Shown one piece after another: positions 17,308 through 39,252 of a stretch of DNA of 48,074 nucleotides (position 1 is the first letter of the stretch; the number at the start of each line of letters is the position of its first letter). This DNA is from a virus. Under the pieces are notes generated by a model. It saw only the letters and a list, made by a program, of their open reading frames with translations, was not told the origin of the DNA and did no database searches. The position numbers were made by a program, and so were the translations under genes. Location of the stretch: positions 1 to 48,074 of the IMG/VR virus record IMGVR_UViG_3300017714_000019. One strand, given 5' to 3'.

Positions 17308-17315
17308 TATTTATG
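17308..17315 (-). promoter_or_regulatory. T4-type late promoter upstream of the 414-aa gene
   Basis: The minus strand reads CATAAATA, 23 bases before the ATG at 17284, and overlaps the TAA (17311-17313) that ends the giant gene. Confidence 0.65.
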
Positions 17316-20300: not shown

Positions 20301-23300
20301 CACTATCAGTATCAAATGTTTCTAGTTGGGTGAGATTATAATCTCTAGATCTAGTGTGAACATTATTTGAAGTAGTATCTCTGAGTTTATCTGCTGTCAG
20401 ACTTCCATCAGGTCCCACTATCGCATCTGCGGTATGGAAAGTACCAGCACCAGTCCAGTTAGTGTCAAAGTCTTCGGGGTTTGTCCAAAGATTAGTTCCA
20501 GGAATCTCAGCATCAATCAGAGAGGTAATAGTATCAGCAGTATCTCTAGTGCGTACATTACCAGGATTGTTATACCAATCAAACGTAGTACCAGTGCTAG
20601 AAGTGGTTGCTGTGGTTGTGGATTGGCGACCAGTTAGAACTTCAGAAGAAGTGAAGGCAGTACCACCAAGTCTAACGCCAAGATATAGGATCGAAGCATC
20701 TTCATCCCACTCAAGAACCTTGTAGTATCCACCACCAGTACCACCAATGACCAATTCACCGATAGTAAAGTTTCCAGAAGCACTAGTTACAACAACCTTT
20801 GTGGCAGTTTGCTTGTCATCAGTATCTGTTGTGATTAGATCATGAACAACATTCTTGGTGATTTCATCAACGAATGTGTCATAACTCCAAGAACCGAAAC
20901 CAAACTGAGAATTAACAATCTGTTGAAGTTCAGTATCATAGTAGTTCTGATTATACAGAATGTTCTTGGATGCAGATCTTGCAGTCTGACCAGCAGGTGC
21001 AATAATACCAAGACCGATATCAACCAATTCACGGAAGCGATATACAACCTGATTGATGTCTATAGTCGCTTCAGTGTCGATGTAAGGAGTTTCAGTGGTA
21101 TACAGAGCAGCATAGTCGCCTGTTGTAGGTGTAGCACCTTGAGCAAGAAGATTATTCTTGATTGCAAACTCGCCAATAGTCTTAATTTGCTCAAAGGCAT
21201 ATAGAGTTGGGAGAAGTTCTTCTTCAATATGATTCAAGTGATTGTTGCTATCCAGATACAATCTGAACACGTCAATCGTAGCATTTGATCCACCAGTCTG
21301 AAGATCAGAGAGGATAGCACGGATTATAAGTTTGATATCTCTTTCACACTTACTTAACCCAGTAGAACCAGGATATACAAATGCTTGGAAGTTTACATTA
21401 TTCAGTTGATAAGTAAATTCTGCTGTAGTAAGACCTGTGATCTCTTCAGCAATATAATCTCTGTTGAAGTAAACACGATCTGCAGCAACCGCAAAGTCAT
21501 CAGAAGTAGGTGCTAAAGCATCATTCAGTGTGGTAACTAAGGTGTCAATAGCACCTCTAACATCAGCACAATTGATAGATGTGGTAACCGCACCTGTTGA
21601 TGCACTTACGAATGTATGACCAACTTGAGGTAGGTGTGATATAGAGTTTGCAGTTGCACTTACGAACAAGTGAGCATTACCAGAAGCACTTCCACTATTA
21701 CCTACGTTAATCGTAATTGTAGTATTAGTTACTGCACTAATTGATCTGGATGTACCAGATGCAGGGTCAGTAGAGCGTGGATAAGTTTGTGGTGCAGAAT
21801 GACCATCAGAATCACAAGTAAAGGTCAGAGAATTGTCAGTAATGACAACGCCCATTCCTACCTCTAAATTATGATCTCCGATGCTCAATACAAGTTCGCC
21901 AGATGCTGCATTGTAAGTAGTGCCAGTTCCAGCAGTAAAGGTTTGGTTAGGACCAGACTTATTGATATCAAGAGTAATTGTTGTGTCAGTTACTGATTCG
22001 ATACGAAGATCTCTACCTGAAGAATAATCACCAGGGCGAGGATATGTGTGCTGAGTTGCATTACTATCCATCGCACATGTCATTGTGATGGAATTGTCAG
22101 CAAGTTTTACATAAGAACCAACTTTCAGTGAGTGCGATCCAATAGTAATAACGGAAAGACCATCTGCAGGATCGTAAGTAACATTAGTTGGTGTGAAACT
22201 AGAGGAAGTTCCATCGTCAGTAATACCCCAATCACCAGTGATAATTGCATCTGTATTATCAGTAGTCAAATCTCCAGTAATCGCTTGCTTCATGTAATGA
22301 GCGAGACGATTGTGTGCGTAGATGGAGAACTGGATTTGGTTTCCAATGTGGACCAGTGCGTTGTTGCTATCGAGATAGAACTTAGCAGCACGAATCGTTC
22401 TATAATTTCCACCAATCTCAATATCATTAATGATCTCAGCAATGATTAGTCTGAGGTCAGTCTTGCATCTGTCTGTGCCAGAACCAGAACCATCTGCATT
22501 TCCAGGAATCTCAGAAGCAAGATCGGGATATCTCTGCAGAAGATCATAAGATGTTTTGTCAATAATTGCAGAAGTATTCAGACGGAGCAGATTAGCAGCA
22601 TCTCTAAATCTATACTTACCATCGGTATCGATTTGATTTGTATAGATGATGTCATTTGTTTGATCCGAGTATGTAATTGTAAACGGAACTTCAAGGTAGG
22701 CATCAACTGTAGCACCAACATATTCATAAGTGGGTTGTGATTTAGTGATCGTTCCGAGATGATCTACAGGAGAAGCAAGATTTGCATTTTCTAAAGTATC
22801 GGTGACGATATCTAGAAGTGTACTTGCTGTACCATAAACATCAGCACAATCGAACGTGTTGTAATCAACAACTGTAATTGCATCAGTATCAACGCTTACA
22901 AATGTGTGTGCATATTGCTGACCAGCAGGAGAAGCACCAACATCAATTGTAAACGTATTTGTGGTGTGAGCAGTAATAGGAAGAACTCTTCTGGAAGCAC
23001 GAGTATCAGAAGTTCTAGGATGTGCTAGTTCTCTATCATTACCATCACTAGTACAGGTAAATCTAATTGATTCATCTGCGATAGTAATTGCATCACCTTG
23101 CTTAATAATCGAACCTGAGACTGCAGAGACAAACGTGTGAGCGTAGTTTCCACCTGCCTTAACAGCACCATTACCACCAATTAACTCATCACGAACAAAG
23201 GTATGAACCGATGTATTTGAAGAACTTGGCATCGCGATGGTGATAGTTCCATCTCTATAAGTGATTGCATTTGCAGCAGCACTAACGAAGGTGTGAATAG

Positions 23301-26300
23301 AGTTCACTGCAGTACCACCAGGACCAACATTAACTGTGTATGTGTCAGGAGTGATTGCACTAATTCTCAACCATCTGCCACTGAAAGGATCAGTGCTTCT
23401 TGGATATGTGTGATTGGTGTAGTTATTATCTTGATCACATGTAAATGTAAGTGCGTCATCTTCAACGCGAATCTTATCGCCAACAGACCAACCATGAGCG
23501 ATCTGACTAACTGTAATTCTAGCGTCACCATTACCACCAGATACTGTCAGAACATCGGTCTTAGAGTATCCAGTACCAGCATTGGTAACTGCGTACTCAA
23601 CAATATCTCCTGTACCACTGCCAACTGAAGTGATGCTAATAATTGCACCACTACCAGTACCACCAGTCAAGGCAACGTTGGTCGCTGTAGCATATCCAGT
23701 ACCGATTGTAGTAACCGCAGAGTTACTGATAGTACCCTTCAGAGCGGTAAGAACAAGAACACCTGTTGTAGCGTTATACGTTGCAGTACTTACATCGTGA
23801 CTAGAACCATTATTTAAGATCGGGAGCGATGTATCATAGTTACCATCGCCAGAGCGAGGATATGAGTGCTCAGTTCCATTACTATCAGTGGCACAGGTCC
23901 ATGTCAAAGATTCATTCTGAAGTTTAATAGAAGTTCCAGGTCTGAGTTCGTGATCACCAATCGTTAATACTGTTCTGTTAGTGTTGGGATCATAAGTTGC
24001 AGCACTAACTGTATAGTAGTCATCCAGAGAAGTACCAATAGGAATATCAAACGTATTAGTAGTAACGTTGGAGATCTTCAACCATCCCAAGGAACCAGGA
24101 TCGCTTCTTCTAGGATATGTCTTATTAAGAGTATTGCCATCACTAGTACAGGAGAATGTCAAACCATTATTAACGATTTGAACCTTATCACCATTGGAGT
24201 AACCATGATTTGAAATTGTAAGAGTCATGACTCCTGTTGTGGCAGTATAAGTTGCACCTGTTGGCGTACTAGTTGTGGGACCAACTAAACCATGAGATGC
24301 ACTGGTTAGAACCATGTCACCCGTAGCGGCATCATAAGTTGCACCAGTAGGAGTGAATACTTTTATTGCAACGCCAACATTAACTGTAATTGTAGTAGCA
24401 GTCTCTGCAGTAATAGCAAGAGCTTGACCAGATGCAGGATCGCTAGAACGTGGATAACCAGTTTGTAATGTATTATTATCGGCATCGCAAGTGAAGACTA
24501 CACCACCATCAGCAATAGTAACTGTATTGGAAGTTGTTAAACTATGAGATCCAATCTCAATAACCAGAACACCTGTTGCAGGATTATATGTTGTTCCTGA
24601 TGCAGCAGTAAAGGTTCCAGATGCTCCACCACCAGCAGTAATTGCATTAGTAACACCACTTACAAAGGTATGAACACCAGCAGGATAAGAAGAATCCGTG
24701 ATAGTTGCATCAGTCAACTGCTTCAGACCATGATCTCCCTGAGTATCCCAAATATCATTAGTGATAATATATTCAGCAATCTCTTTTACCTTATCAAATA
24801 CCCAAACAGATTCTTTAATTTCACTTTCAACATGACTTAGTGTAATTGGATTGACTGCTCTGTTGACATACAAAGCAGCAGCATCCCAAATGTGACTATT
24901 GCTACCATTTTCAAGGTCGGAAATAAGTGCGTCAAGAACATCGCGAATGTCGTCTTCACAAGCAATTTCGCCTGTTGGAACTGTGAAGTATGGGAACTTC
25001 TCTTTCATCAGATACACCGCTTCATTAGCGATATAATCTTTGTTTCTTCTGATAAGACCCGCAGCATCATAGTAACGTTGAGTTACCTTAACCAAAGAAC
25101 CTCTAGTTAGAGATGTTGCACGAATTGCATCATTATTAAAGAACTCTCCAGCAGTGAAAGATTCAGTACCAGACCAATCTTCAATATAAGTTGCTGCATC
25201 AGCACCATCGAAGTGGATGAGCAGAACTGCATTAGAGTCACCTTGGAAGATGCCCTGCTGAGGAGTAAATGCATCAGTGTATCGTGCATTTGTAGAAACT
25301 CTCACTTCATCGATATGACCATTGAAGAAGTCGCCATCCGCAATGGTAGCACCAATTCTTAGGGGTTTTGTGGAACCATAATCATTACCATCAACATAAT
25401 TACTCGAACCATCCAAAGCACCATTTACGTATACCTTTGTGGTTCCAGAAGACTTGACTAAAGCAACATGATACCAAGTATCTACGGCAAGAGTAGTAGT
25501 ACCACTCCATACAACCAAGTTGTTAACGAAATACTTCAGATTTGTGCCATCAAGGTACAAGTAAGGAGAAAGTTCTGTGCCTGTAGTTCTAAAGTCAATG
25601 ATTGCTTTCGCACCAGTAACATTTGCAGGTCTAATGTAGCACTCGATTGTAAAATCAGTAGTTCCGAATCCAAACTCAGTGGAAGTAGGAACTGAAACAT
25701 AATCGCCCGTACCATCCAAAAGCAATGAGGTGGTTCCGAATCTCTTTTGGTCTACATCTAGTTGTGCATTACCATTAAAGGTTGCATGATGATAATCTTC
25801 ACCAGTACCTTTTGATCTACCAACTTTTCCAAGATAGATCGTTTGATCAGCAGGTGCATAACCAACAACTTCTGCTTTTGTATCATCGGTTCTAATTACC
25901 TGTCCTTGTCTGAACAGACCATCACCACGAAGTTTATTGAATGTCAGTTTTCTGCTATATGCAGGTTCTGAAACTTGGAAGTCTCCAACATTGTTACCAT
26001 ATTCAAACTTATAATTACGAATGGTTTCATTGTCCAGCAAAGCACCTGTAGCATTATCATAAGTTATGATGTTGTTGCTGATAGGTTCTGTTGAGGGGAA
26101 CTTAATATCATATGGTGTCAGATTATCATCAAAGTCTAGAATGCTTACTTGTGAAGTAGCAATATCATCAAGAATGATATTAGGATACGTTACAGATGCA
26201 ATTCTGTTGAACAATAGACCGAAGAAGTTAGAACCTTCAGAAATTTCAAAGGATCCTGAGTCAGTGTTAGTAATTGGATCTGAATAAGATTGAGAAGTTT

Positions 26301-29300
26301 GAACTTCAACAACAACTCCAGACTGAAGACCAATGATGATGTCTCCATCTTCAATTGAATAAAGACCAGGTGTAGACTGATAAGTACCGATAATCTTACT
26401 CAGAGTCATTGTATTTGTTACTGAGATTTCAGTCTTATAGACAGGAGTGTCTTCTAAATGACTTTGGGCAGCAGTATTATTAACACCTCTGATAACTTCG
26501 ATTGTAGTTGCATCAGTTCCTTGAGTGATATTGACAATTTCAAACAACTCAGGACCCATCTGATATTTCTTACCGATTACAAACTCGCCATCAGCAACAG
26601 GTGCATCATCGTCAGTATTAGCAACCTTTCTAGCAACAACCTCAAAGATTGTAGTTGCAAGTCCAACACCAAATCTGAGTTGAGAAATAGGAGTCTCTTG
26701 ACCTCTTTCAAGGTTAACTTGCTCAACGATTGCACGATCATCATCAAAGTTTCTAACTGTTTCACCGAAGACAAACAGACCAAGATTTGAAACCGAAGTA
26801 GAAGTTGCAAAGATTGCGTTGAATCCAGTAACATTCGCAGTTACAAACTCGTCAGTTATAAATCCAGTATTACCAGAACCAAGATCCGAATAGAAACCTC
26901 TGATGACATTGCCATCGACTTGAGTTACTGTGAATCTAGAGATTGTTGTAGAACCAACAATGACATTACCGACATTAGGGAAGATACCACTAATATTGTT
27001 AAATGTAAGGTCAATTAGAGGTTTTGGTGTGAATGTAATAGTGATATAACGAACACTTGCTGGTGGTTGTGGGGGTTCAGCAAATACCAAGAGGTTGTCA
27101 ATAACATTGAATGCTGTTCCTGGTGTTTGAACAACACCATTCAAGATAATCATCAACTGATTCTCGTTGGCAATAATAGATTGCTGACTAACTGATAGTG
27201 GGAATGCAGTTTCAATACCATCAAAAAGTTGGTCGATATTATCAAGAGTTTGAACTGTCGAGGTCAGAATGTTCTCTGAGGAGGTCAGTCGCTTCTGACG
27301 GAACAGAACTTCAGTATTGTTGAACTCGGAATAGATAGGTTCGACAAGAGCAAAGTTCTGAATATTAGGAACAATCGCTTCTTGTGCAAGTTCAACGGAC
27401 TTGGTGATTTGGAAAGTAGTCTCTTTGTTAGGAATAAATCCATAATCATCTATACTAAGTTCTCCAAAAACTTTAAATGATGCAGGGTGAACATTCTTGA
27501 TAAGAATATCCTTCCACTCATTGATAGAAACTGCAGAACGAACTGCATAAGAGAAGTCTTGATAATAGTAAGAGTCTTGAATTTTCTGAACAATCTCAGA
27601 AGGTTTACCAACATCATCAGTAAATTGACCAGTTGTCTTGGTAATAGAACCAATTTCAAGAACACCTTTAGCAATCTTAAGGTCTGCGATAATACCAGAA
27701 GACTTAGAGATCACACCAGTAATTGATTGACCTACTAAGAAGTTGCCAGTGTAATCAACAATCTTGACAATTCTAGGTCCAACCTGCCAACCATTATTGG
27801 TCGAGATATAACCAGTTGCTGTAGCATTCTCAATAGTGGTGCCCTGATAAACCAGTTCACCCTCTAAGAAAGTAGAAGTGATTACATTTGCTTTAGCAAC
27901 ACCACCAAATGCAGTTGTCAATACCTGTTGACGACCAGTACCATTATTAACAAAAGTGATGGCATCACCCAGTTCAGCATTAGAAGAACTAATAGCAAGT
28001 TTTAATTGATCATCTTCAAGAGAATTTGCTGCACCTGCAATAGCATAATAAGTGGTAGATCCGTTCAATCTACCCAGAGCACCAGAAGAAAGTGGATACT
28101 CAGCACCATCACCAGTGTCTACAACATTCAGAGTGACTTCAGATCCATTTACAATACCATGAGGGAATGCAAATTGCAGAAGACCCAAGTCAATATTAAC
28201 AACATAGTTGAAAGAAGATTTCAGTGAAATAGTAGGTTCAGAAGAATATCCAGAACCAGAATCTTTAACAATGATATCACTTAGTCTGCCATTCTGAACT
28301 ACTGCTTCTGCTACAGCATTAGATCCACCACCACCTGTAATTACAACAGCAGGTGCCTGTGTATATCCAGAACCAGGATCGGATACTGTAATACTCTCAA
28401 GAATAGAAGTAGAGTTAAGTTGTGCGTTAATTGGGAATGTGATCTCAGGACGCAGAGTGTAGTCATGAGGATAATCATAACCGAAGTTATTATTCTTAAG
28501 TCTCTTGATCTTACCAACGCTATCTCCTCTAGTGAAGATTGATGCGCCAGTACCAAAAGGAGGAATGACAACTACAATTTCAGCACCAGAACCAGTTGCA
28601 CCAACACCAAGAATGCCATCAATTGCTTCAATATCAACGGTTGCAGTTGTGTATCCTGTGCCAGGAGATGTCACTGCAACTGCTTGAATCTGACCAGAGA
28701 TTGTATTACCCTCATCATCTTGACCATCGGCAACTGTAATTTGTACAAAACCGCCTTCGCCATCGCCAGAAATAGGTACACTATTATAAGTTCCTACCGC
28801 ATATTCAGTACCAGGATCATTAATTTGAACTCTTTCAATATTTCTGTTAGAAACAATATTGCTAACAACAGGCAATCTTGTATAGAAACCACCAGAGTTT
28901 ACGATTCTAACAGCAGAAATAGAACCAACTGCTTTCTTAGAACTTGTAGCATAAGATGCTGTACTGATTTCACCAACACCCTCTGGTTCATTAAGTAAGA
29001 GGAAACTGAATGTATCTGCACCAGTTGTGATCGTAGCACCTGAAACACTAGTGATATCAAAAATGCCTGCATAAGGAGAATCTACAACATCAAGATAACT
29101 TCCAGAGATGACAGGAGAATCGGCACCAGTTCTAGATGGATCGAAGTAATAAGAGATGTTAGTAACAATACCTCTATCAACTTTCAATGAAATTGTGGAC
29201 TTAGCATTGGATCCAGGATTACCAGGAGTGCCAACACGTTCAATAGAGTTGAAAGAATACTCCAATTTGTAAAGGTTATCCTTCGAGAAAGACAAGTTAG

Positions 29301-32300
29301 ATCCCAACATTGTGGAATGACTAACATCAAAGATATAATTATGTCCATAGTACATCTTCAGGGTTGGAGACTTAACAAAGATGCCAACATTTCCAATACC
29401 ATTTAATGCAGGAGATGTGGTGGCAACTGCAGGCAACTTATAAGTAAATTCAACAGGACTTACAATTGTATTGGTAGTAAATGATCCATTATATTCCGAG
29501 GTTCCAGTAAGAACATTGCCATCGACAAAGATGTTCTCGCCCTGTCTCAGATAATGCTTAGAATTAGTAACAACATAGACTTCATCAGTATTTGCAACAG
29601 CAGTTACTTGTAGGATACTAGTAAGATTAGTTACAATCGTAATCTTAGATACTCCAGTCAAATTAGTGATTGTTGCAACATTATTGTCGGCGTTGAGACT
29701 AAAATCACCAGAATCAAGAGTAATTACAGAACCAACTGCGAAAGAAGAAGATCCAGAAAGTTCATCAATTCGGATAACGTAATCATCGGTAGAATATGGT
29801 TTGAACAATCCAAACTGATCTAGATTATTAGTACCACCAGAAGGTGCATTATATGCAGATAGATCAATTGCAAATGTACCAACACTAGGATTGAAACCTA
29901 CCTGAGCAAAAGTATACCCTGTAATTTCATTGCTAGTACTAACTACAGGACCAACAATTCCATATGTAGATTGCTCACTAAATTGCTCGAATTTTAGATA
30001 ACCAGTGTTAAGATCATTTGTCCAAGAATTATTATTGATCGCAACATAAATGTTGGTGGCATCTTGCCTTACAACATAACCAGAATTGACAAATGCATCA
30101 GAATTATTATAAAGAACTACTTTAGAATTAGTTATTGCCTCAAATGATTGATTGATAGTGAGTTTTTGAACATTATCAATCTTAATAGTATTAGTAGGTT
30201 TGAAATAATACCTATCTTTAACAATTGCCGAAATCTTCAGTTTCTGAGAACCAGGAGATGGAACTGTCGCAGTTCTAGAACTCCAAAGGTCTACAACTGG
30301 TTCCAAAGTCTCAGTATCTTGAGCTAGTGAAGTAGATACATCATTATAGTCTAGAGTTTGCAGACCTACTGCACCTAGAGTGTAATCACTAGTTGTATTT
30401 GTAAGATCGAACGAAGAAAGAGATCCTGCAGTACGAACAAAACCAGTTTTTGTATTTGTTCTCTCTGTAATTGTTCCAAGTCTGTCAGAATCAGAATTCT
30501 TATCAACTTTTAGGGTAAATCCTTCATAATCGATATAATCATATTGTTGTGTATTTGTTGTGAACCATGCAGTATCAGTCCAAGCATATGCCTGAGCAAA
30601 CTGACCACTTGCAGGATATGCAGTAACATCCGAAGGAACTGATGGGTTGAGTGCTCTGTTCTTGAGACGAATATTATCTGCATAGAACTGACCCTGTTCA
30701 TTAGAACGGAATGTTCCTGCTACTCCATCTCTTCCAGGAATATTACCAATATGAAGATCTTTGTTAGCTAGAGTAACATTTGCAACAGATCCAGAGAAAA
30801 CTACATTTCCATTTACATATGCAGCAAATGTACTACCAGTCTTTTTAATACCAATAAACTGCCAAGAATTGTCAGCAAACATGTTTGACAATCCAGACTG
30901 AAGAGAAGTAACTGCAGAATTGATAGGAGTTGTATTTTCGGTAATTACCAAATTCAACTTACCAGTTGAGACATCATAATACAACCAGATACCACCAGTA
31001 GCACCGCTAGCATCACCAACGGCAAGTAAAGTATGCTGTGTCTGACTATAATCACCATTTCCTGCATAATACTTGTACAACATGAACTCAAGAGTCCAAT
31101 CATCGTCAAGTTTACTTCCTAGTTGACTTGAAGGGATCTTAAGTGCAGCATTTGCCCAATCTCCTGTACTACCGATAGTAGCGACATCGAAGGTAAGATT
31201 ATCAGCACCACTAGCACCAAGATTGGCATCAGTAATAGTAAATGTGTCATTTACAAGATAGTTAGTACCAGGATTATCGATATCGATAGATGTACCACCA
31301 TCAGTTTCAACTGTAATTGTGAATGATGCACTGGCACCAGATGCACTAGTTGTTGTATATTTTGACGAATCAATTTCGTATGTTCCTGCTGCTCTAGCAA
31401 GACTGACACTAGCAACATCAAATTTAAATGATTCTGCTCCACCACTACCAAGATTAGCATCTGGGATTGTGATGGTTTCATCTACTGCATAACCAGAACC
31501 ATCTTCTGGAATTGCCGAGATTGTTCCATTACCTGAACCATCGACAACAATTGTGAATGTAGCATTTGTACCACTACCATCTGTAGTGTAATCAGAAGCA
31601 CCAATATTATATGTTCCTGCTGTTCTCTGATTAGTTCTAGTAGCAACATCGAATGTAAGTGGGGATGCGCCGCCACTACCAAGATTAGCATCTAGGATTG
31701 TGATAGTTTCATCTACGGCAAATCCAGAACCACCAGTAACAACACTAGCTGTACAATTACCAGATCCATCAACAACTACTGAGAAAGTAGCACCGCTACC
31801 GCTAGCATCAGTAGTGTAATCGGAAGCACTGATACTATATGTTCCTTGAGATCTTTGAGTTGTAATAGAAGCAACATCAAAGGATAGGTTTTCGGCACCC
31901 GCATTACCTAGATTGGAATCTGCGATTGTGATAGTATCGTTGATTGCATAACCAGATCCACCATTTGTAATGGTGATTGTTGCAGCACCCGCTCCATCAA
32001 CAACAACTGAAAATTCAGCTCCAGTACCAGATGCACTAGTTTCTGAGTATTGTGATGAATTAATTGTATATGTTCCTGCTGTTCTAACATCAGTAATGTC
32101 AGAGACATCAAAGACTAAATCAGCAGCACCACCATTACCAAGTGCGGTATCAGGAACTGTAATCTGTTCATTGAGTACAAAAGCAGAACCAGGAGCACTA
32201 ATAGTGATACCTGTTATCGCACCACTGACATCAACAGCAATCGTGAAAGTTGCGCCTGCACCACTACCATCTGTAGTGTAATCAGAAGCACCAATATTAT

Positions 32301-35300
32301 AAGAACCAGCAACTCTATTTGAATCTGTAGTGCCGCCAGTAACAGCAAGCACTTTACCAATAATTCCTTGATTAATGGTATCTACAGTTACGATATCACC
32401 CAGTGTACCATTATCAAGGGTATCAAGTGTTAGAACCTTACCAATGATGCCATTATCAATAGTGTCAGTTGTTACGATTTCTCCATAACTATCATCAATA
32501 TTATCTACTCCACGAACTCTTCCAGTAAGAGCATCGTCTGCTTTAATCTTTGCAACACCATCTTCAATATCAAGTGATTCTTCACCAAAAGTTCCAATAA
32601 GAACTGTTGGGGTGTAATGGTTTGCAATATCTGTAGCAGTGTCATCTGCAAAGGTTAAGATGAACTCATTTCTGTTCCAAGAAGTTTGACCAGCAAGATA
32701 TACATCACCTGAGTTATCAGTTGCCATACCATAGACTGAAGCACCCTCAACATTATTAATGGTGAAGTCTGTGCTAGTTCTCTTAAGGAAAGTGCCGTCA
32801 TACTTGAGTTTTACATTCTCAATAATCTTATGACCAGTGGTGTCATTAATCTTTGTGAATGCAATATTCAGATCATTGAAGATATCAATATTGGAAACAG
32901 GAGCAAGTTCGATTGTACTTCCAGTAACATATCTCTTGTTCCAGATAATAGTACCAGCAGTATTAAATTTACCAACCCAGAAACTATCTCTAGTCGTACC
33001 ATCACTCTTAAGAGTTAATGTAGCACTGATATAGAATTCATTATATTCATCACAGGCAAGACTTGTATTACCGAATGAATAAACACTATTAACAACTTGC
33101 TTAATGAATGCAACTGCAATTGCATTTGTAGTTAATAATACCTTACCAAAAGCAACATTTACATTAGTAGAGGAATCGGTATCTGCTGTTTCTAGAGTAA
33201 AGTAGATATCAGTACCAACTATCTTCAATGCTGTTAGTTTTTCAGAAGCATTTGCAGAAGACAACTTTCTCTTAATTGCAAAGTTGCCATTCATATCGAT
33301 AGATGCGATAAATGCATCATAAGGATTACCAGAATTAGTATTCGTAAATCCACCAATGATGAATCTAGTATCAGAATATTTTTCTAGTGATGTAATGTGA
33401 TCTGCACGAGTAGCACCAGAAATACCAGCATATGCTTTCTGCCATTCTAGTGTTGCACTGAGACCATTAACATCTTCGACATATTTGGCAAGCATGATGT
33501 CAGGATTATATGCATCAACAACCTGACTATTGGGTTTAGTTAGTCCAGCAACCCAAACCTGATTTCCATCAACATAAAGTTTAACAAATTCGGTATAATC
33601 AAGACCAGTAGTATTGACAAGTGTTTTCTGCCATTCAATTGTGCCATTTGCAGAGAATTTTGCAACAAATGCCACATCAGTATCATCAGCAGCATTTTTA
33701 GTGGTGCCACAGACATACGATTTTTTATCATCAGTTACAACAATGTCATTAACTTTAGTGTTATCATTGTTTTCCAACAAACCAACAAAGTAATCTGTCT
33801 TTTTAAAGATCTGAGGATGCGAGAGAATAATTCTAGGATCTTGAGTATATCCATTACCAGAACTAACGATATTAACTTTATCAATAGAACCAACAGAAGT
33901 TACTACTGCCTCAAGAGAAGCAGATGTTCCGTCACCATCAATAACAATGGTAGGAGGAATGTCAGTATTGTATCCAGAACCAGTTTGAGTAATTACAATC
34001 TCTTCAATACCCTTGTATTGTCTGACAACGAACTCTTTGTTCGTATTTGCCATAATAGGTGTGTAATCAGCAAAGATTCTATCTCCGACTGCTAAGTTAT
34101 GAGGTACACTAGTTGTAATTTTACCAAAACTTACGCCACTAAGATTTTCAAAGTTGTATGAACTAATTGTTTCTCCAAGAATTCTAGAGACTCTAGCAGA
34201 AACGCCGAGACCATCGGTATCAGTATTATCGAAGACCAATCTGTCATCAACTTGATAGTTGATACCAGGATTTTCAATTGAGAATCCAGTAACAGATGCA
34301 TCTTCAAATTTAGTAATTGTTTCAACTTCAATATCAACTTTAGAATCTTCTTTAACCTTGGGGAAATAGTCAAACAATTGTAAAGGAGATTCTTCAAAGA
34401 CTTGATCTGGATCTTGAGTTTCTGCAGAATCTATAACACCATCTCTGTTTTCATCTTCTACTTCAAACAAAAGAATATCACCATCTTCTAGTGATAGAGA
34501 ATTTGTTGAGGCATTTGGAATTCTAGGAACGTCAATATCGACGTTTTCATAAGGATCGCGATATCTAACAACCCCAGTAGGAATATTTTGCTGAGTTGCG
34601 TTAGCATCTAGATTCCATTTATCAACAATAGAATTAAAACTTGGACCCAGTACATAAGGGAATACTGGATTACCTACTGCCGTAGCATCAATAGTTACAA
34701 AATAAACGTATCGACCCTCAGGAAACTCAGGTGTCTTACAGAAACGACCATTATATTGGTCGAGATCTCCTAGGTTGAAAACATACTCATAATCTTCAAT
34801 AAATGTTCCAGCACTATCAGTACTTAATTCAGGACCATCGTTTCTGACAGGACTGATATTAGTAGTCGCATCAAAGATCAAAGATTCTTTAATTCTATAA
34901 GAAGTCAGAAGTCTTCTAAGTGTAGACGATTGATCGGTAGGATCTTCATATCCGTAAGGACCATAGATCGGATTACCATCAAATGCCCAACCGATAATAG
35001 GAGAGTGCTCTAAGGACTCGTCTTCTTCTTCCAATTCTCCTGCAGAGGTTAGGGTCATGTTATCCCCAAGAACATACCTCAGTCTTTGGGGATTAGATAC
35101 ATGAGCATACTCACCACCATACTGGTTATTAAATCCTTCAAAAACTGAACCTTTAGCAGCATCAAATGTTGATGTGGACTGAAGGTTATAGTTCCATTGG
35201 AAAATATTAGCAGTAAATTCTGCAAATTCACCAACTGAAGTTAAATTGATCAGAGTAGTACCCTGAACATAACCAATACCTCTGTTTACGATTTCAATTC

Positions 35301-38300
35301 CAGTAACTCTTCCTGCATTCTCACCATCAATATCAATAGTTGCTCTGGCAATAGCACCAAAACCTTCACCTTGGATTTGAATTTCTGGTGCAGTAGTGTA
35401 TCCACTACCACCATTAATGATAGCAACCGAAATGATTCTTCCGTTACTTACAATAGGTTGAGCAACAGCACCAGAACCAGAAGTAATTGAAATCTCTGGA
35501 ATAGAAGTATAACTAGAACCTCCAGATTCTACGCTAATTGATTTGATCGGACCTCTAACTGCTGCATTAGCAGTAGCACCATTGCCGCCACCACCAACAA
35601 TAGAGATTAAAGGTTGTGACGTGTAGTCAACTCCACCATCATTGATAAGGATTCTTGATACAACACCTTTGGTAATAATTGCCGTCGCAGTAGCACCAGC
35701 ACCACCGCCACCAACGATAGAGACTAGAGGAGACTCAGTGTACCCAGAACCGCCTGCAGTAACGTCGATAGAGGAGATAGAACCATTGACAACAACAGAT
35801 GCTACAGCACCAGTACCACCGCCACCAACTACACTAATAGAAGGTGGGAATGCAGCATCATAACCCTGACCTACGTTAACAACATCAATACCTGTCAGAG
35901 AACCAAAGGTTTTGGAAACATTAGACTTATAAGACCAAATTGAGACACCATTAATCCAAGTTCCAATAGGACCAGGATTGATAGCATTTTTTGTAGAAAT
36001 TGTAGCAGAAACTCTAGGGAAACGATTCAGTTTTCTCTGGTTTCCAGGCAGAAGTGCAGATCCTGGAAAAGGTCCAATATTATAGTTAGGAATACCCGTA
36101 GATGCAACATAAACGTAGTTATCATTGAAAAATGTATTCTGTACGTTTGTAGTATATGGACCAATTGCATTTAAAACTGCAGAGTTGGTAGATTTTCCTT
36201 TGTTAAGGTCAATAGAAACAAGAATATTACCCTGAGGTGCAATTACACCAGGTTGTGGCAATTGATATTGGAATATATTAGTACTATCTCTAGATGTAAC
36301 TAAGAATGTTCCGTTATAGATGATTGGGTTTGCACCATAGATGGTAACTTGGTCTCCAACCAAGACACCATGATCATTGGTACAAGTAACAGTAGCAATA
36401 TCATTATTAAATGCAATGTTATCAACTTCAATCAGTTTTTTAACATTATACAACCAAGTTGTTAATTCAGAAGTATCAGAAGTACCACCTAACTTGGAAA
36501 TAGTTAATTTATCACCAGGAAGGTAATAAGAACCAGTATCTGTCAATGTTGTTTGATCTGCATCAACAATACCAACAACATTCAACTGAACTTCAGTATC
36601 AGTTCCTTTGTTAATGTATACTCTAAAGTTAGAGGTGACTTCTGTTGCAGCATCCCAAACTTGAGCATTACTATTATCTTCACCACGAGTACACTCAATA
36701 AACTGGTTCAGAGACTTTTCTTTATACTGAACGACTTCTGTGTCACCAATTAGGAACTGACCATTTCTCTCAGGCCATCCAACAGTAGAGTCAACTGTAA
36801 TAATGGTGTCTTCTGCATCAAGAGGTTCAGCAAGTTTAGTTTTATATGGAACAGTGAAAACACCTTCAATAGTTTCTTCGGAAAGAACTAATTCGTAAAT
36901 TGTAAAGGTGGATGTATTAATAGCAATATAGTTTTCAACTAGAGCAGTTGCTTCTGAAATGTTAGCATCTGCAATGTCTGCATCTTGACTTAAGATACCA
37001 TCTCTAATATTTGCAGGATTTCCACTAACTAAAGTTGCACGCAGAACTGTGTCAATAGACCAAGTAGATGCTGATGGTTTGATAATTTGATCTTTAGGAT
37101 AAGAAACACTGATGTTCTCACCATAAAGAAGTTTAAAGAGATATGAAATACTGAAAGATGTACCTTTAGATTGATAGAAATCTCTAACAGTCTTAATTGC
37201 TGTTCTTACATCAATTGATTTATAATCAAGTTCTGGGATATCTGGTAGATATTGCTCAGTATATTTGTCAAGTAGTCTCTTAACAAACAAAGAGTCTAGG
37301 CATTTGATTTCTGTTTCAACATCTGCTGCCATTGCCATGGTATTATTTGAAAATACCGCATTTCCATCTTCAGTATACTTAGTGATACCACTTGCAGCTC
37401 TTGCACAATTCAGGAACTGAGACTTAGAATATCCAGAACCAGATTTGTTAATAGAATAACCAGTTACCTCATTAAGACCAATAGTAACTGATGCTTTAGC
37501 AGTTGGAGGATCTTGAATGAAAAGTGTTGGGGGGAAGGCAGCACTATATCCACTACCAAAGTCAGTGATATTAATATCGGTAATTTGACCATTGAAAATG
37601 GACGCTACTGCTGCAGCACCTGTTCCACCATTGTCTCTGTTATCTACGATATAAACAGAGGGGACATTATCATATCCAGATCCACCACTAAGAAGATCGA
37701 CTCCAATGACTCTACCATCTCCATCAACTCTGGTTTGTAAAACTTGAGCACCAGTAGGATCAACAATTGCAATTCTAGGTACTTCGGTATATCCCTGACC
37801 TCTATTCAGAATTTGAATCTCTGTAACTACACCATTAGTAAGTACAGACCTAAAACTTGCTCTAATTGCATCATTGCCAGTGGGTTCATCAACATATACA
37901 ACAGGAGCAGTAGTATATCCACTACCACCATCAGTTACAGTGATTGTACCTGTGATCTGACCAGAACCGATAGTAGGTGTTTGGAGTTTGGCACCACCAG
38001 GTTGCTTAAATGTAACTCTAGGATCGAAAGTGTATCCACTACCAGAACTAGTAATTTTTAAGGAACTTACGCTGCCATTAGTTACTTCAGCAGTAATTCC
38101 AGCAACCAAGGAACCCTCTCTAGTGGGTTGTTCAATTTCTACTACAGGTGGGTTTGTATCACTATATCCTAAACCACCATCAAGCAGTGAAATAGTCTTA
38201 ACACCATTGATAAGAGCAGTGGCAGAACCACCAGAACCTGCAACAGAACTAACGCTTACCTTAGGAGGATAATCAAATTGATATCCCGAACCAGTCTCGC

Positions 38301-39252
38301 TATTGGAGATAGAAGTGAGTTCGCCACTATTATTGATGCGAGCATATCCAAGTGCTCCAACACCAAAAGATGGAATAGGTGCTTCAATCGAATATAAAGA
38401 AAGGATCTTACCTTTCAAAGGTGGTACTTCAAAAATAAACAGACTACCATCAATAAAAAATTCTTGCCTAGGAGCAAGCAACTTGTTATCGTAAATAGCA
38501 ATTACAAACTCATCAGTAATTGGTTCGTATACCTCTCCATTACGAGTAAGTGTAAATTGGTTTTGACCTTCTCCAAAAGATCCAGAAATATCATCCAAAG
38601 CGATGATACTATTCTCAATGAATCCTTTTTGGAAGAAGATATAAGTCTGATCAGTGGAATCAGACGGAGTTCTTACTCTTGGTGCTGTAGTGAATGTAAT
38701 AGTTGTACCACTAACCTGATAATCAACATCAGGATACAAAATTTTACCATAAAGACTTACAATCAAAAACTGAGATTGTGGAGGAGTGATGGGATTACCA
38801 AGACTCAGTAATTGAAAAGTTTGAGTTACTCCATCAAAAGCATCAATAAGGTTTTCTAGAGTAGTCCATTTTACTCTAACCTGTTCATACGAAATACCAG
38901 CACTCAATGCAATGTTAGGAGAACTAGTTGTCGTTTCATAATAAATTATTTCGTCGCCAATTAGAACTGTGCCATTTCTCTCAAGAAATTTGTCAACACT
39001 TTCTACAACAATTGTTTCTGAATCTGCAGCAATTGATTCTACTAGTTTTGTGGCACCATCAAGAATACTAACATCGAGTTTATCGATATTTAAGTATTCA
39101 AGAAAATTATTAATAATATTTTGACCTAATCCAGTCTTTTCTTGTGATCTGTAGTAATATTCTACAAATTTGACAAGCAAAGGGTATTCAGACCCAATGA
39201 AGTCGGGAGCCTTAGCCGCGATTGATTGAGAGACCTTATTTACGTTATTCAT
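17311..39252 (-). CDS. Giant multidomain virion protein (7,313 aa) in the gp7 position
   Basis: One unbroken frame of about 22 kb. Order by residue: an N-terminal region with EYPLLVKFVEYYYRSQ; about nine GSGY beta repeats to ~620; a mixed region with DFYQSKGTSFSISYLFKLLYG near 700; more GSGY repeats ~1120-1310; a YHYH-type domain with DGNPIYGPYGY at ~1425; a beta-propeller-like section ~1817-2208; five tandem 77-aa repeats ~2313-2696; LamG 1 at ~2697-2870; a unit shared with gp8 at ~3475-3575; LamG 2 at ~4487-4695; three helical modules and seven YPR repeats between ~4720 and 6040; and C-terminal LNGVIQEPG-type units. It follows gp6 by four bases, where T4 has gene 7 (1,032 aa). A gp7 relation cannot be shown by reading alone. 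It probably forms a baseplate-peripheral, glycan-binding structure. Confidence 0.92.
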   Translation of the reverse strand: MNNVNKVSQSIAAKAPDFIGSEYPLLVKFVEYYYRSQEKTGLGQNIINNFLEYLNIDKLDVSILDGATKLVESIAADSETIVVESVDKFLERNGTVLIGDEIIYYETTTSSPNIALSAGISYEQVRVKWTTLENLIDAFDGVTQTFQLLSLGNPITPPQSQFLIVSLYGKILYPDVDYQVSGTTITFTTAPRVRTPSDSTDQTYIFFQKGFIENSIIALDDISGSFGEGQNQFTLTRNGEVYEPITDEFVIAIYDNKLLAPRQEFFIDGSLFIFEVPPLKGKILSLYSIEAPIPSFGVGALGYARINNSGELTSISNSETGSGYQFDYPPKVSVSSVAGSGGSATALINGVKTISLLDGGLGYSDTNPPVVEIEQPTREGSLVAGITAEVTNGSVSSLKITSSGSGYTFDPRVTFKQPGGAKLQTPTIGSGQITGTITVTDGGSGYTTAPVVYVDEPTGNDAIRASFRSVLTNGVVTEIQILNRGQGYTEVPRIAIVDPTGAQVLQTRVDGDGRVIGVDLLSGGSGYDNVPSVYIVDNRDNGGTGAAAVASIFNGQITDINITDFGSGYSAAFPPTLFIQDPPTAKASVTIGLNEVTGYSINKSGSGYSKSQFLNCARAASGITKYTEDGNAVFSNNTMAMAADVETEIKCLDSLFVKRLLDKYTEQYLPDIPELDYKSIDVRTAIKTVRDFYQSKGTSFSISYLFKLLYGENISVSYPKDQIIKPSASTWSIDTVLRATLVSGNPANIRDGILSQDADIADANISEATALVENYIAINTSTFTIYELVLSEETIEGVFTVPYKTKLAEPLDAEDTIITVDSTVGWPERNGQFLIGDTEVVQYKEKSLNQFIECTRGEDNSNAQVWDAATEVTSNFRVYINKGTDTEVQLNVVGIVDADQTTLTDTGSYYLPGDKLTISKLGGTSDTSELTTWLYNVKKLIEVDNIAFNNDIATVTCTNDHGVLVGDQVTIYGANPIIYNGTFLVTSRDSTNIFQYQLPQPGVIAPQGNILVSIDLNKGKSTNSAVLNAIGPYTTNVQNTFFNDNYVYVASTGIPNYNIGPFPGSALLPGNQRKLNRFPRVSATISTKNAINPGPIGTWINGVSIWSYKSNVSKTFGSLTGIDVVNVGQGYDAAFPPSISVVGGGGTGAVASVVVNGSISSIDVTAGGSGYTESPLVSIVGGGGAGATATAIITKGVVSRILINDGGVDYTSQPLISIVGGGGNGATANAAVRGPIKSISVESGGSSYTSIPEISITSGSGAVAQPIVSNGRIISVAIINGGSGYTTAPEIQIQGEGFGAIARATIDIDGENAGRVTGIEIVNRGIGYVQGTTLINLTSVGEFAEFTANIFQWNYNLQSTSTFDAAKGSVFEGFNNQYGGEYAHVSNPQRLRYVLGDNMTLTSAGELEEEDESLEHSPIIGWAFDGNPIYGPYGYEDPTDQSSTLRRLLTSYRIKESLIFDATTNISPVRNDGPELSTDSAGTFIEDYEYVFNLGDLDQYNGRFCKTPEFPEGRYVYFVTIDATAVGNPVFPYVLGPSFNSIVDKWNLDANATQQNIPTGVVRYRDPYENVDIDVPRIPNASTNSLSLEDGDILLFEVEDENRDGVIDSAETQDPDQVFEESPLQLFDYFPKVKEDSKVDIEVETITKFEDASVTGFSIENPGINYQVDDRLVFDNTDTDGLGVSARVSRILGETISSYNFENLSGVSFGKITTSVPHNLAVGDRIFADYTPIMANTNKEFVVRQYKGIEEIVITQTGSGYNTDIPPTIVIDGDGTSASLEAVVTSVGSIDKVNIVSSGNGYTQDPRIILSHPQIFKKTDYFVGLLENNDNTKVNDIVVTDDKKSYVCGTTKNAADDTDVAFVAKFSANGTIEWQKTLVNTTGLDYTEFVKLYVDGNQVWVAGLTKPNSQVVDAYNPDIMLAKYVEDVNGLSATLEWQKAYAGISGATRADHITSLEKYSDTRFIIGGFTNTNSGNPYDAFIASIDMNGNFAIKRKLSSANASEKLTALKIVGTDIYFTLETADTDSSTNVNVAFGKVLLTTNAIAVAFIKQVVNSVYSFGNTSLACDEYNEFYISATLTLKSDGTTRDSFWVGKFNTAGTIIWNKRYVTGSTIELAPVSNIDIFNDLNIAFTKINDTTGHKIIENVKLKYDGTFLKRTSTDFTINNVEGASVYGMATDNSGDVYLAGQTSWNRNEFILTFADDTATDIANHYTPTVLIGTFGEESLDIEDGVAKIKADDALTGRVRGVDNIDDSYGEIVTTDTIDNGIIGKVLTLDTLDNGTLGDIVTVDTINQGIIGKVLAVTGGTTDSNRVAGSYNIGASDYTTDGSGAGATFTIAVDVSGAITGITISAPGSAFVLNEQITVPDTALGNGGAADLVFDVSDITDVRTAGTYTINSSQYSETSASGTGAEFSVVVDGAGAATITITNGGSGYAINDTITIADSNLGNAGAENLSFDVASITTQRSQGTYSISASDYTTDASGSGATFSVVVDGSGNCTASVVTGGSGFAVDETITILDANLGSGGASPLTFDVATRTNQRTAGTYNIGASDYTTDGSGTNATFTIVVDGSGNGTISAIPEDGSGYAVDETITIPDANLGSGGAESFKFDVASVSLARAAGTYEIDSSKYTTTSASGASASFTITVETDGGTSIDIDNPGTNYLVNDTFTITDANLGASGADNLTFDVATIGSTGDWANAALKIPSSQLGSKLDDDWTLEFMLYKYYAGNGDYSQTQHTLLAVGDASGATGGIWLYYDVSTGKLNLVITENTTPINSAVTSLQSGLSNMFADNSWQFIGIKKTGSTFAAYVNGNVVFSGSVANVTLANKDLHIGNIPGRDGVAGTFRSNEQGQFYADNIRLKNRALNPSVPSDVTAYPASGQFAQAYAWTDTAWFTTNTQQYDYIDYEGFTLKVDKNSDSDRLGTITERTNTKTGFVRTAGSLSSFDLTNTTSDYTLGAVGLQTLDYNDVSTSLAQDTETLEPVVDLWSSRTATVPSPGSQKLKISAIVKDRYYFKPTNTIKIDNVQKLTINQSFEAITNSKVVLYNNSDAFVNSGYVVRQDATNIYVAINNNSWTNDLNTGYLKFEQFSEQSTYGIVGPVVSTSNEITGYTFAQVGFNPSVGTFAIDLSAYNAPSGGTNNLDQFGLFKPYSTDDYVIRIDELSGSSSFAVGSVITLDSGDFSLNADNNVATITNLTGVSKITIVTNLTSILQVTAVANTDEVYVVTNSKHYLRQGENIFVDGNVLTGTSEYNGSFTTNTIVSPVEFTYKLPAVATTSPALNGIGNVGIFVKSPTLKMYYGHNYIFDVSHSTMLGSNLSFSKDNLYKLEYSFNSIERVGTPGNPGSNAKSTISLKVDRGIVTNISYYFDPSRTGADSPVISGSYLDVVDSPYAGIFDITSVSGATITTGADTFSFLLLNEPEGVGEISTASYATSSKKAVGSISAVRIVNSGGFYTRLPVVSNIVSNRNIERVQINDPGTEYAVGTYNSVPISGDGEGGFVQITVADGQDDEGNTISGQIQAVAVTSPGTGYTTATVDIEAIDGILGVGATGSGAEIVVVIPPFGTGASIFTRGDSVGKIKRLKNNNFGYDYPHDYTLRPEITFPINAQLNSTSILESITVSDPGSGYTQAPAVVITGGGGSNAVAEAVVQNGRLSDIIVKDSGSGYSSEPTISLKSSFNYVVNIDLGLLQFAFPHGIVNGSEVTLNVVDTGDGAEYPLSSGALGRLNGSTTYYAIAGAANSLEDDQLKLAISSSNAELGDAITFVNNGTGRQQVLTTAFGGVAKANVITSTFLEGELVYQGTTIENATATGYISTNNGWQVGPRIVKIVDYTGNFLVGQSITGVISKSSGIIADLKIAKGVLEIGSITKTTGQFTDDVGKPSEIVQKIQDSYYYQDFSYAVRSAVSINEWKDILIKNVHPASFKVFGELSIDDYGFIPNKETTFQITKSVELAQEAIVPNIQNFALVEPIYSEFNNTEVLFRQKRLTSSENILTSTVQTLDNIDQLFDGIETAFPLSVSQQSIIANENQLMIILNGVVQTPGTAFNVIDNLLVFAEPPQPPASVRYITITFTPKPLIDLTFNNISGIFPNVGNVIVGSTTISRFTVTQVDGNVIRGFYSDLGSGNTGFITDEFVTANVTGFNAIFATSTSVSNLGLFVFGETVRNFDDDRAIVEQVNLERGQETPISQLRFGVGLATTIFEVVARKVANTDDDAPVADGEFVIGKKYQMGPELFEIVNITQGTDATTIEVIRGVNNTAAQSHLEDTPVYKTEISVTNTMTLSKIIGTYQSTPGLYSIEDGDIIIGLQSGVVVEVQTSQSYSDPITNTDSGSFEISEGSNFFGLLFNRIASVTYPNIILDDIATSQVSILDFDDNLTPYDIKFPSTEPISNNIITYDNATGALLDNETIRNYKFEYGNNVGDFQVSEPAYSRKLTFNKLRGDGLFRQGQVIRTDDTKAEVVGYAPADQTIYLGKVGRSKGTGEDYHHATFNGNAQLDVDQKRFGTTSLLLDGTGDYVSVPTSTEFGFGTTDFTIECYIRPANVTGAKAIIDFRTTGTELSPYLYLDGTNLKYFVNNLVVWSGTTTLAVDTWYHVALVKSSGTTKVYVNGALDGSSNYVDGNDYGSTKPLRIGATIADGDFFNGHIDEVRVSTNARYTDAFTPQQGIFQGDSNAVLLIHFDGADAATYIEDWSGTESFTAGEFFNNDAIRATSLTRGSLVKVTQRYYDAAGLIRRNKDYIANEAVYLMKEKFPYFTVPTGEIACEDDIRDVLDALISDLENGSNSHIWDAAALYVNRAVNPITLSHVESEIKESVWVFDKVKEIAEYIITNDIWDTQGDHGLKQLTDATITDSSYPAGVHTFVSGVTNAITAGGGASGTFTAASGTTYNPATGVLVIEIGSHSLTTSNTVTIADGGVVFTCDADNNTLQTGYPRSSDPASGQALAITAETATTITVNVGVAIKVFTPTGATYDAATGDMVLTSASHGLVGPTTSTPTGATYTATTGVMTLTISNHGYSNGDKVQIVNNGLTFSCTSDGNTLNKTYPRRSDPGSLGWLKISNVTTNTFDIPIGTSLDDYYTVSAATYDPNTNRTVLTIGDHELRPGTSIKLQNESLTWTCATDSNGTEHSYPRSGDGNYDTSLPILNNGSSHDVSTATYNATTGVLVLTALKGTISNSAVTTIGTGYATATNVALTGGTGSGAIISITSVGSGTGDIVEYAVTNAGTGYSKTDVLTVSGGNGDARITVSQIAHGWSVGDKIRVEDDALTFTCDQDNNYTNHTYPRSTDPFSGRWLRISAITPDTYTVNVGPGGTAVNSIHTFVSAAANAITYRDGTITIAMPSSSNTSVHTFVRDELIGGNGAVKAGGNYAHTFVSAVSGSIIKQGDAITIADESIRFTCTSDGNDRELAHPRTSDTRASRRVLPITAHTTNTFTIDVGASPAGQQYAHTFVSVDTDAITVVDYNTFDCADVYGTASTLLDIVTDTLENANLASPVDHLGTITKSQPTYEYVGATVDAYLEVPFTITYSDQTNDIIYTNQIDTDGKYRFRDAANLLRLNTSAIIDKTSYDLLQRYPDLASEIPGNADGSGSGTDRCKTDLRLIIAEIINDIEIGGNYRTIRAAKFYLDSNNALVHIGNQIQFSIYAHNRLAHYMKQAITGDLTTDNTDAIITGDWGITDDGTSSSFTPTNVTYDPADGLSVITIGSHSLKVGSYVKLADNSITMTCAMDSNATQHTYPRPGDYSSGRDLRIESVTDTTITLDINKSGPNQTFTAGTGTTYNAASGELVLSIGDHNLEVGMGVVITDNSLTFTCDSDGHSAPQTYPRSTDPASGTSRSISAVTNTTITINVGNSGSASGNAHLFVSATANSISHLPQVGHTFVSASTGAVTTSINCADVRGAIDTLVTTLNDALAPTSDDFAVAADRVYFNRDYIAEEITGLTTAEFTYQLNNVNFQAFVYPGSTGLSKCERDIKLIIRAILSDLQTGGSNATIDVFRLYLDSNNHLNHIEEELLPTLYAFEQIKTIGEFAIKNNLLAQGATPTTGDYAALYTTETPYIDTEATIDINQVVYRFRELVDIGLGIIAPAGQTARSASKNILYNQNYYDTELQQIVNSQFGFGSWSYDTFVDEITKNVVHDLITTDTDDKQTATKVVVTSASGNFTIGELVIGGTGGGYYKVLEWDEDASILYLGVRLGGTAFTSSEVLTGRQSTTTATTSSTGTTFDWYNNPGNVRTRDTADTITSLIDAEIPGTNLWTNPEDFDTNWTGAGTFHTADAIVGPDGSLTADKLRDTTSNNVHTRSRDYNLTQLETFDTDSVTFDTGTESFDTGSITALQKYTLSFFVKEAEYERVKFEYILDPGTAGEQRAFFSFNMDVGTKGSLFQPGGAIRVEQEGVKTIANINVTTIAAMTGTYTGLSALGAAVGTGATFDVTIDHENAPNTAVVTINNDGIAYDVGDSLTIVNSAINGANTSNNLTFDVETIFNNGAGVIPYGDGWYRVYITGEFGFGFSTLQHKIQLLNNSGQESFTGTGSNGIYLWGAKLNKGELDPYVAASGETFFSNTEYNIKQLILNSMIGWMSESLDNSLTNPSPQTTTYTFYDSTAAADYTSESIRRSIRYLLGIVKEQLGNTNHVNTFSDNSGITIPTYTYGTRNIPTGLLGGIAQTEYFYGSYSGSYAELKTNTLNEGLIAKVYKRFRIDGDITDGPYTMNEVVQKQGDAAITGVVYGFHEDENFKYLDVAVTAGTWAITDTIEGATNTTTAQISAIEDRIHIIDFRGTFITDIPFKGYTSGNTATPITLFNNNAAVLANTGGKLTVDTEGLTGTFETTSVVYPSTSRVYLDLQSYAGLELGVGDRIGSSGHQRLQISVITSQGVVLNNFTEGNRLYKVVSGGQVSNVYGIITGVDLDNNYVYVKMVEGSLTLGDFVGDYGTIGGDFPVGYATISTIVTNAGAASGRIQNIQTIGGTKRLYLADIRGTFSEKDGIVGPNGHKSIILDRDVLKGRVKRFFRGFDGTTTNFKLSTGNGTQYLPDPAGHLLIFINGILQPPGATNAFTAFSDQIQFTEAPEPGASFTGFYVGKLRQLDDISFEFDSLRQSFNLKRNDVFYSLTLTDGVQSTTIRPENNIIVSLNGVIQEPGVGFEVVGSRIIFSEIPRVGSTFVAFSYVGSEADVDAAEVVPSIEAGDLISIQGETSDREVAIIESSNSLITFDYLGSVFGRDADATTTLTSQFIDSVRVTAGGSGFTSKPAIVASSITGSGAEIVPLIGVAGIELSAPGSGYQVSTIDVETSVPDDWTAPNLADYGEELVDPELS
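21600..24680 (-). repeat. Seven YPR-type protein repeats inside the giant gene
   Basis: Seven diverged copies of one unit occur at about residues 4858-5884. Each has a strand, a CxxDxN-like loop, a conserved YPRxxDPxSG-type turn (HPR in one copy), then TxTTITxxVG and usually AHTFVSA. The turns map near 24440, 24105, 23850, 23390, 23015, 22030 and 21770. I do not know a named domain for it. Confidence 0.8.
25170..25795 (-). other. LamG/concanavalin-like domain 2 of the giant protein
   Basis: Residues ~4487-4695 follow the LamG pattern: GTTSLLLDGTGDYVSVP, FTIECYIRP, TWYHVALVKSSGTTKVYVNG, KPLRIGA, FNGHIDEVRVS. This is a carbohydrate- or ligand-binding beta sandwich in other proteins. Confidence 0.85.
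30645..31165 (-). other. LamG-like domain 1 of the giant protein
   Basis: Residues ~2697-2870 show DDWTLEFMLYKYY, GIWLYYDVSTGKLNLVI, SWQFIGIKKTGSTFAAYVNG, LHIGNIPGR and FYADNIRLKNRAL, the strand order of LamG-type lectin domains. It directly follows the tandem 77-aa repeats. Confidence 0.75.
31165..32316 (-). repeat. Five tandem ~77-aa repeats in the giant gene
   Basis: Residues ~2313-2696 contain five consecutive copies of a unit of about 230 bp. Each starts AGTYxIxASxYTTD, then SGAxATFTIVVDGSG, a GSGYAVDETITI strand, DANLGSGGA and FDVAT. A 41-bp stretch is identical at 31571-31611 and 32261-32301, exactly 690 bp or three units apart, which points to fairly recent duplication. Confidence 0.88.
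32630..33805 (-). other. Beta-propeller-like section of the giant protein
   Basis: Residues ~1817-2208 contain repeated blades of the SBBP type: DIVVTDDKKSYVCG, DVAFVAKFSANGTIEWQKTL, RFIIGGFTN, DAFIASIDMNGN, DSFWVGKFNTAGTIIWNKRY, DNSGDVYLAGQTSW. The order of an observation strand, then a D-x-F/A-V-A-K-F and a G-T-I-x-W strand is typical of such propellers. Confidence 0.7.

Follow-up and report, generated by a model that had tools for sequence, protein, structure and literature searches.

A giant protein of marine T4-like cyanophages as a probable counterpart of the baseplate wedge protein gp7, with a three-piece core and large added modules

Can a single phage gene of about 22 kb be genuine, and what would its product do in the virion? 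The question is raised by a virus record of 48,074 nucleotides (IMG/VR IMGVR_UViG_3300017714_000019), referred to below in its full length as the window, in which the open reading frame listing contains one frame on the minus strand (17311..39252) that begins with ATG and encodes 7,313 amino acids. The predicted protein has a mass of 780 kDa and a pI of 4.4. A preliminary description, drawn from the sequence, had proposed a single unbroken gene several times larger than that of T4 gp7, lying in the slot of gp7 between gp6 and the gp8 cluster. The size comparison holds (7,313 vs. 1,032 amino acids), and the frame has the properties of a gene. Its sole stop codon is the terminal one, with 197 to 953 stops in each of the five other frames. 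The GC content by codon position is steady and coding-like from end to end, and the gene contains no Ns. In a stretch of 1,560 codons toward the N-terminus, comparison with a close IMG/VR contig gives a dN/dS of approximately 0.1 (0.082/0.767), and a second nearby IMG/VR contig, compared over 1,224 codons that are likewise N-terminal, gives ~0.1 again. The protein is colinear over 92–94% of its length with the products of single genes from the isolated phages S-P4, P-SSM4, and P-RSM4, which cover 6,848, 6,800, and 6,727 of its 7,313 residues, respectively. Because of this colinearity and the dN/dS of about 0.1, the frame is a true gene and not a chance occurrence.

The sequence was taken from a virus contig of metagenomic origin that has internal repeats, circumstances that would favor misassembly or fusion of adjacent genes as the origin of the extraordinary length. 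This origin is given almost no credence, however, since the three isolates possess full-length colinear genes, which effectively rule it out, and the gene is under purifying selection. In addition, 25 IMG/VR contigs with the same C-terminus carry unbroken frames of 6,064–9,244 amino acids, making an assembly join or a frameshift, the outcome that the preliminary description had named as fatal to its claim, very unlikely. Misassembly could plausibly have affected only the copy number of one tandem array (residues 2308–2693, described below).

The neighborhood of the gene is that of a baseplate operon, and the proposed slot is borne out by matches of the flanking genes to PHROG families. The order in the window is gp25 – gp6 – giant gene – gp9 – GC399 – gp8 – VrlC, and the same order is found in S-P4, P-SSM4, P-RSM4, and S-SM1. 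The baseplate wedge genes gp25 (41356..41775, minus strand; phrog_261) and gp6 (39257..41356, minus; phrog_219) precede the giant gene, with gp6 directly upstream and its product a predicted partner of the giant protein. The gene for the tail-fiber connector gp9 (16040..17284, minus; phrog_677) lies directly downstream, followed by those for the wedge protein gp8 (10244..11776, minus; phrog_438) and for VrlC, a protein of 2,429 amino acids (2955..10244, minus) that takes its name from its syntenic counterparts in the isolates. Between gp9 and gp8 lies the gene for another wedge protein (phrog_708). Elsewhere in the window, a 183-amino acid PAAR-type protein whose middle part is long relative to the family profile is encoded at 41950–42501, between gp25 and a phrog_719 wedge protein, and a fiber-like structural protein (phrog_697) of at least 809 amino acids, truncated by the contig end, occupies positions 1–2427.

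The giant protein belongs to a family that is already known from hundreds of isolated phages and is in part annotated as gp7. Each third of the protein is matched, with an E-value of 0, by the profile phrog_701, which has 6,136 columns and the label ‘virion structural protein’; together with the colinearity noted above, this extends similarity to the family along the whole chain. Searches with the first and the last 1,000 residues match 483 and 315 phage records, respectively, nearly all of them T4-like phages of Synechococcus and Prochlorococcus. The cyanophage family corresponds to phrog_701 and to gene clusters T4-GC969, 397, and 643. An isolate protein of nearly equal length, P-SSM4 gp7 (7,312 amino acids; AAX46881.1, AY940168 57144–79082, T4-GC 397), is designated ‘gp7 baseplate wedge initiator’ in GenBank, and the gp7 name appears in some other records as well. 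It resembles the giant protein in operon position, colinearity, and possession of all three core elements described below, with 63–70% identity in the conserved parts, but differs in repeat content around residues 2240–2700 and 4700–6400. S-P4 gp047 (7,041 amino acids; ‘virion structural protein’, T4-GC969) is likewise colinear, with 72% identity over the first 2,240 amino acids, and compared with it the giant protein has an additional block of 453 residues (2241–2693). The P-RSM4 homolog has 6,603 amino acids, and that of S-SM1, SSM1_102 (T4-GC969), shares the core order but is shorter at 6,180. Larger relatives are found among IMG/VR contigs, namely G013 (9,240–9,243 amino acids), G014 (9,244), G022 (8,458), G005 (8,384), and G010 (8,209), placing 7,313 residues in the middle of the family range and not at its upper end. 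Database labels for the family vary: phrog_701 is filed under ‘head and packaging’, while synteny and the gp7 core point to ‘tail’, and the S-SCSM2R homolog (PQ898602, 60123–75641) is called a ‘large exoprotein involved in heme utilization or adhesion’, which is misleading for a baseplate wedge protein.

Is the gp7 name, applied here and there to the family, justified? A plain BLASTP comparison of T4 gp7 with the giant protein gives no match, and it is from profile and structure comparisons that the gp7 identity suggested by the preliminary description draws its support. Three short conserved elements of the giant protein follow the order of the C-terminal core of T4 gp7; each was compared by sequence on its own. 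The first, E1, is an N-terminal helical segment (residues 6–50; 39103..39237, minus; HMM E-value of 3.7e-25 in the window), proposed to correspond to T4 gp7 residues ~643–690, part of the gp6–gp7 core bundle. The second, E2 or the KGT segment (residues 648–737; 37042..37311, minus), is overlapped at residues 674–723 by the Pfam family PF23786 (Baseplate_wedge) and is equivalent to T4 gp7 ~731–760. The third, E3, contains the motif YYQxFSY...HPA (residues 3884–3954; 27391..27603, minus; HMM E-value of 1.7e-35 in the window) and corresponds to T4 gp7 ~864–890. A search for gp7 similarity in the first ~1,000 residues, as had been suggested, therefore meets E1 and E2, but E3 lies far beyond that range, near residue 3,900.

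The case for equivalence is strong for E2 and moderate for E3, judged by sequence comparison. Profiles of the window family and the T4 gp7 family align at the KGT segment with an E-value of 1.1e-6 (hhalign). HMMs for E2 and E3 were built from non-T4 homologs and run against T4 gp7, with 200 shuffled T4 gp7 sequences as the control. The E2 HMM matches T4 gp7 at 732–758 with an E-value of 5.1e-8 (best shuffle 0.17), and as it contains no window-like sequence, this match constitutes an independent test. The E3 HMM matches an HPxG segment at 864–890, following KGT as the T4 order requires, with an E-value of 8.5e-4 and values down to 3.9e-5 among T4 relatives (best shuffle 0.33). Smaller homologs also connect to T4 gp7, which matches phrog_26741 (the 503-amino acid Stenotrophomonas type) with an E-value of 1.7e-5 and phrog_17744 (the Sinorhizobium type) with 3.6e-4. 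For E1 the correspondence is proposed through such small homologs only: the E1 HMM by itself is non-significant against T4 gp7 (best E-value among T4 relatives 0.18), and contiguous profile alignment of the region to the T4 family is obtained only via phiM19 and phrog_17744, the T4 gp7 family profile phrog_964 matching phiM19 gp93 over T4 columns 643–832 (E-value of 8.9e-7).

Searches against structures point in the same direction. When two family profiles were searched against PDB sequences, gp7 ranked first both times and at the same segment, with weak E-values of 0.031 and 0.14. A phmmer search of PDB sequences with the raw giant protein returned no gp7, its lone match being an RcGTA head spike in the C-terminal region. 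Foldseek, run with a model of a natural 896-amino acid homolog, produced only two PDB matches with values under 1e-3. Both fall in baseplate entries that include gp7, one from T4 (5iv5) and one from Klebsiella KP1 (9f4a), and the matched chains have lengths expected for gp7. The model itself is poor (mean pLDDT 53, TM about 0.08) and the match rests on short local segments; owing to this low confidence the result is regarded as support and not proof. An AlphaFold model of residues 1–800 of the giant protein, in which the β-rich part is confident and the helical core (E1, E2) is of low confidence, gave no PDB match below 1e-3 in Foldseek. The Pfam families PF21428, PF21427, and PF21456 (Gp7_helical, Gp7_5th, and Gp7_6th) are found in T4 gp7 only, being absent from the giant protein and from five other homologs scanned, and the giant protein is not assigned to the T4-type gp7 subfamily that these domains define.

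A gp7 core in cyanophages, as proposed here, contradicts a published account that cyano- and pelagimyophages lack T4 gp7 and apparently use VrlC in its stead (PMC7029224). On that account the giant protein would be a mere adhesin or fiber hung on the baseplate, a role to which the surface-type character of several of its domains would be suited. The distribution of the core elements speaks against such a loss of gp7, which is considered highly improbable: the VrlC of the window lacks E1, E2, and E3 (E-values of about 1 or no match), whereas the giant protein has all three with E-values of 1e-22 to 1e-37. Moreover, a short gp7-core gene coexists with a VrlC gene in Sinorhizobium phage phiM19 and in Stenotrophomonas phage IME-SM1. 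VrlC was rejected as the gp7 substitute on its motif content, and it is concluded that the shortness and dispersal of its core caused gp7 to be overlooked in cyanophages.

How dispersed the core has become is evident from a series of homologs of increasing size (503, 896, 1,007, 4,446, 6,180, 7,313, and 9,240 amino acids), in which E1, E2, and E3 are always found in this order and the gene always directly follows gp6. The spacing can be expressed as the numbers of residues before E1, between E1 and E2, between E2 and E3, and after E3. In the short proteins these are 7, 10, 252, and 58 for IME-SM1 gp109 (503 amino acids), 11, 96, 383, and 211 for Melnitz-3 gene 161 (896), and 10, 2, 796, and 1 for phiM19 gp93 (1,007). 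These three proteins, which link to the giants through their shared core elements and operon position, are 7- to 15-fold shorter than the giant protein and have few inserted modules. The values are 34, 94, 2,342, and 1,787 for P-HM1 (4,446 amino acids); 5, 604, 2,706, and 2,662 for S-SM1; 5, 605, 2,708, and 3,083 for P-RSM4; 6, 599, 2,703, and 3,531 for S-P4; 6, 605, 2,801, and 3,697 for P-SSM4; 6, 598, 3,147, and 3,359 for the window protein; and 8, 613, 2,870, and 5,548 for G013, whose frame was read whole, contains all three elements, and owes its extra length mostly to the region past E3. Growth has taken place at three fixed places, with the stretch past E3 the most variable. T4 gp7 (1,032 amino acids; PDB 5iv5, 5hx2) has its elements ordered alike, at 664–675 (weak), 732–758, and 864–890 (spacing 664, 57, 106, and 142), and its gene also follows gp6, but 663 residues of extra domains precede the core and the loops are short. 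The marine and short homologs begin at E1; in the giant protein almost nothing precedes the core, and large insertions interrupt and follow it.

The added sequence consists of repeats, detected by self-comparison of the protein in chunks, and of domains, detected by Pfam cut-offs. Between E1 and E2 lies a first block of GSGY β-repeats (residues ~305–615; 37408..38340, minus; AlphaFold pLDDT about 90), and a second block follows E2 (residues ~1110–1340; 35233..35925, minus). Next are a YHYH domain (residues 1352–1526; 34675..35199, minus; PF14240, E-value of 1.1e-32) and a probable β-propeller (residues ~1840–2235; 32548..33735, minus), the latter recognized from a weak SBBP match (E-value of 0.018) and a repeat pattern seen by eye. 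Tandem repeats of ~75 amino acids (residues 2308–2693; 31174..32331, minus) are missing at this place in S-P4. A first Laminin_G/ConA-like domain is placed approximately at residues ~2694–2850 (30703..31173, minus), from a second PF13385 stretch with boundaries drawn by eye, and a Laminin_G_3/ConA-like domain lies beyond E3 at residues 4513–4657 (25282..25716, minus; PF13385, E-value of 1.6e-25). A variable repeat region (residues 4719–6035; 21148..25098, minus), the least conserved relative to the isolates, includes three related modules (4719–4834, 5548–5662, and 5912–6035) interleaved with β repeats, and the chain ends in a conserved C-terminal region (residues 6485–7313; 17314..19800, minus) with 63% identity to P-SSM4. 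The many adhesion-type folds that had been claimed for the protein are thus partly confirmed, the YHYH and Laminin_G/ConA domains passing Pfam cut-offs and GSGY repeats being numerous, but the β-propeller has only its weak match.

Several of these modules have relatives in other virion proteins. The GSGY repeats (residues ~305–615, 1110–1340, 1730–1815, and 3520–3690) produce cross-matches to phrog_460 (‘head closure Hc2’) across many proteins of the window; the label probably comes with the repeat and is unfit for transfer to these proteins. The tandem array has a DNA period of 228 bp and falls inside the 453-residue block that S-P4 lacks there. The VrlC proteins of P-RSM4 and S-TIM4, as well as further virion proteins, contain similar repeats, which may therefore move between such structural genes. 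Residues 6487–6547 (19612–19794, minus) match the RcGTA head spike fiber Rcc01080 (6tb9, E-value of 1.8e-7), a shared attachment or spike module.

The giant protein is very probably the marine cyanophage form of T4 gp7, a small three-piece wedge core to which thousands of surface-type residues have been added. One member of the family has been reported as a virion component: using mass spectrometry on purified S-SM1 virions, Sullivan et al. (PMC3037559) detected T4-GC969, the cluster number borne by SSM1_102. In S-CREM2, ORF122 (1,937 codons by its coordinates), a candidate counterpart by its position, directly follows a gene called ‘baseplate wedge protein, inner’ and was detected with 91 unique peptides and 27% coverage (PMC10665884). 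T4 gp7 is present in one copy per wedge, binds gp6, gp8, gp9, and gp10, and has one domain that swings outward during the hexagon-to-star change (PMC3004832). By extension, the retained E1, E2, and E3, in T4 order, would seat the giant chain in the wedge beside gp6, within the gp6–gp7 core bundle, and one copy per wedge would give six copies with a total mass of about 4.7 MDa. The approximately 600, 3,150, and 3,360 residues of β-rich, lectin-like, and repetitive modules between and after the core pieces may loop outward as a baseplate skirt, which would mount fibers (gp9 being encoded next door) and touch the host surface, an adhesive role suggested by the types of domain present. An analogy is provided by gp17 of Vibrio phage XM1 (242 amino acids), described as a T4 gp7 ortholog with an N-terminal helix-turn-helix in the core bundle and with tail spikes anchored at a loop and a C-terminal tail (PMC10457771). 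This minimal protein, likened to the giant by its published description and not by sequence, has spikes that are separate proteins; in the giant, surface modules would instead be fused to the loops and tail of the core.

A core split into three distant pieces, along with the alternation of conserved and variable blocks, might also suggest that the chain is made whole and then processed, leaving the wedge core and outer modules as separate chains. Even so, a packed three-piece core would still require that all fragments be retained, and a search of limited depth found no processing signal; this course of events is held to be improbable. For the single-chain gp7, a broader scheme may be offered tentatively, with somewhat less than even confidence. 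Marine T4-like phages may have turned the wedge scaffold into a one-chain skirt in which fixed loops of the gp7 core have taken up adhesin and repeat modules, with the core itself remaining functional across gaps of 3,000 residues. The outer modules would then form an evolving host-contact surface, doing work that separate spike or short-fiber proteins perform elsewhere.

The literature searched, an incomplete sample, yielded no prior description of the giant proteins, the three-piece core, or the insertion sites. In a phage group that is among the commonest in the ocean, giant gp7 genes account for about a tenth of the genome, and most copies are labeled merely ‘virion structural protein’ or ‘hypothetical protein’. 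The putative three-piece T4 gp7 core inside these proteins provides a testable model of the cyanophage baseplate and marks the inserted modules as possible sites of host contact.
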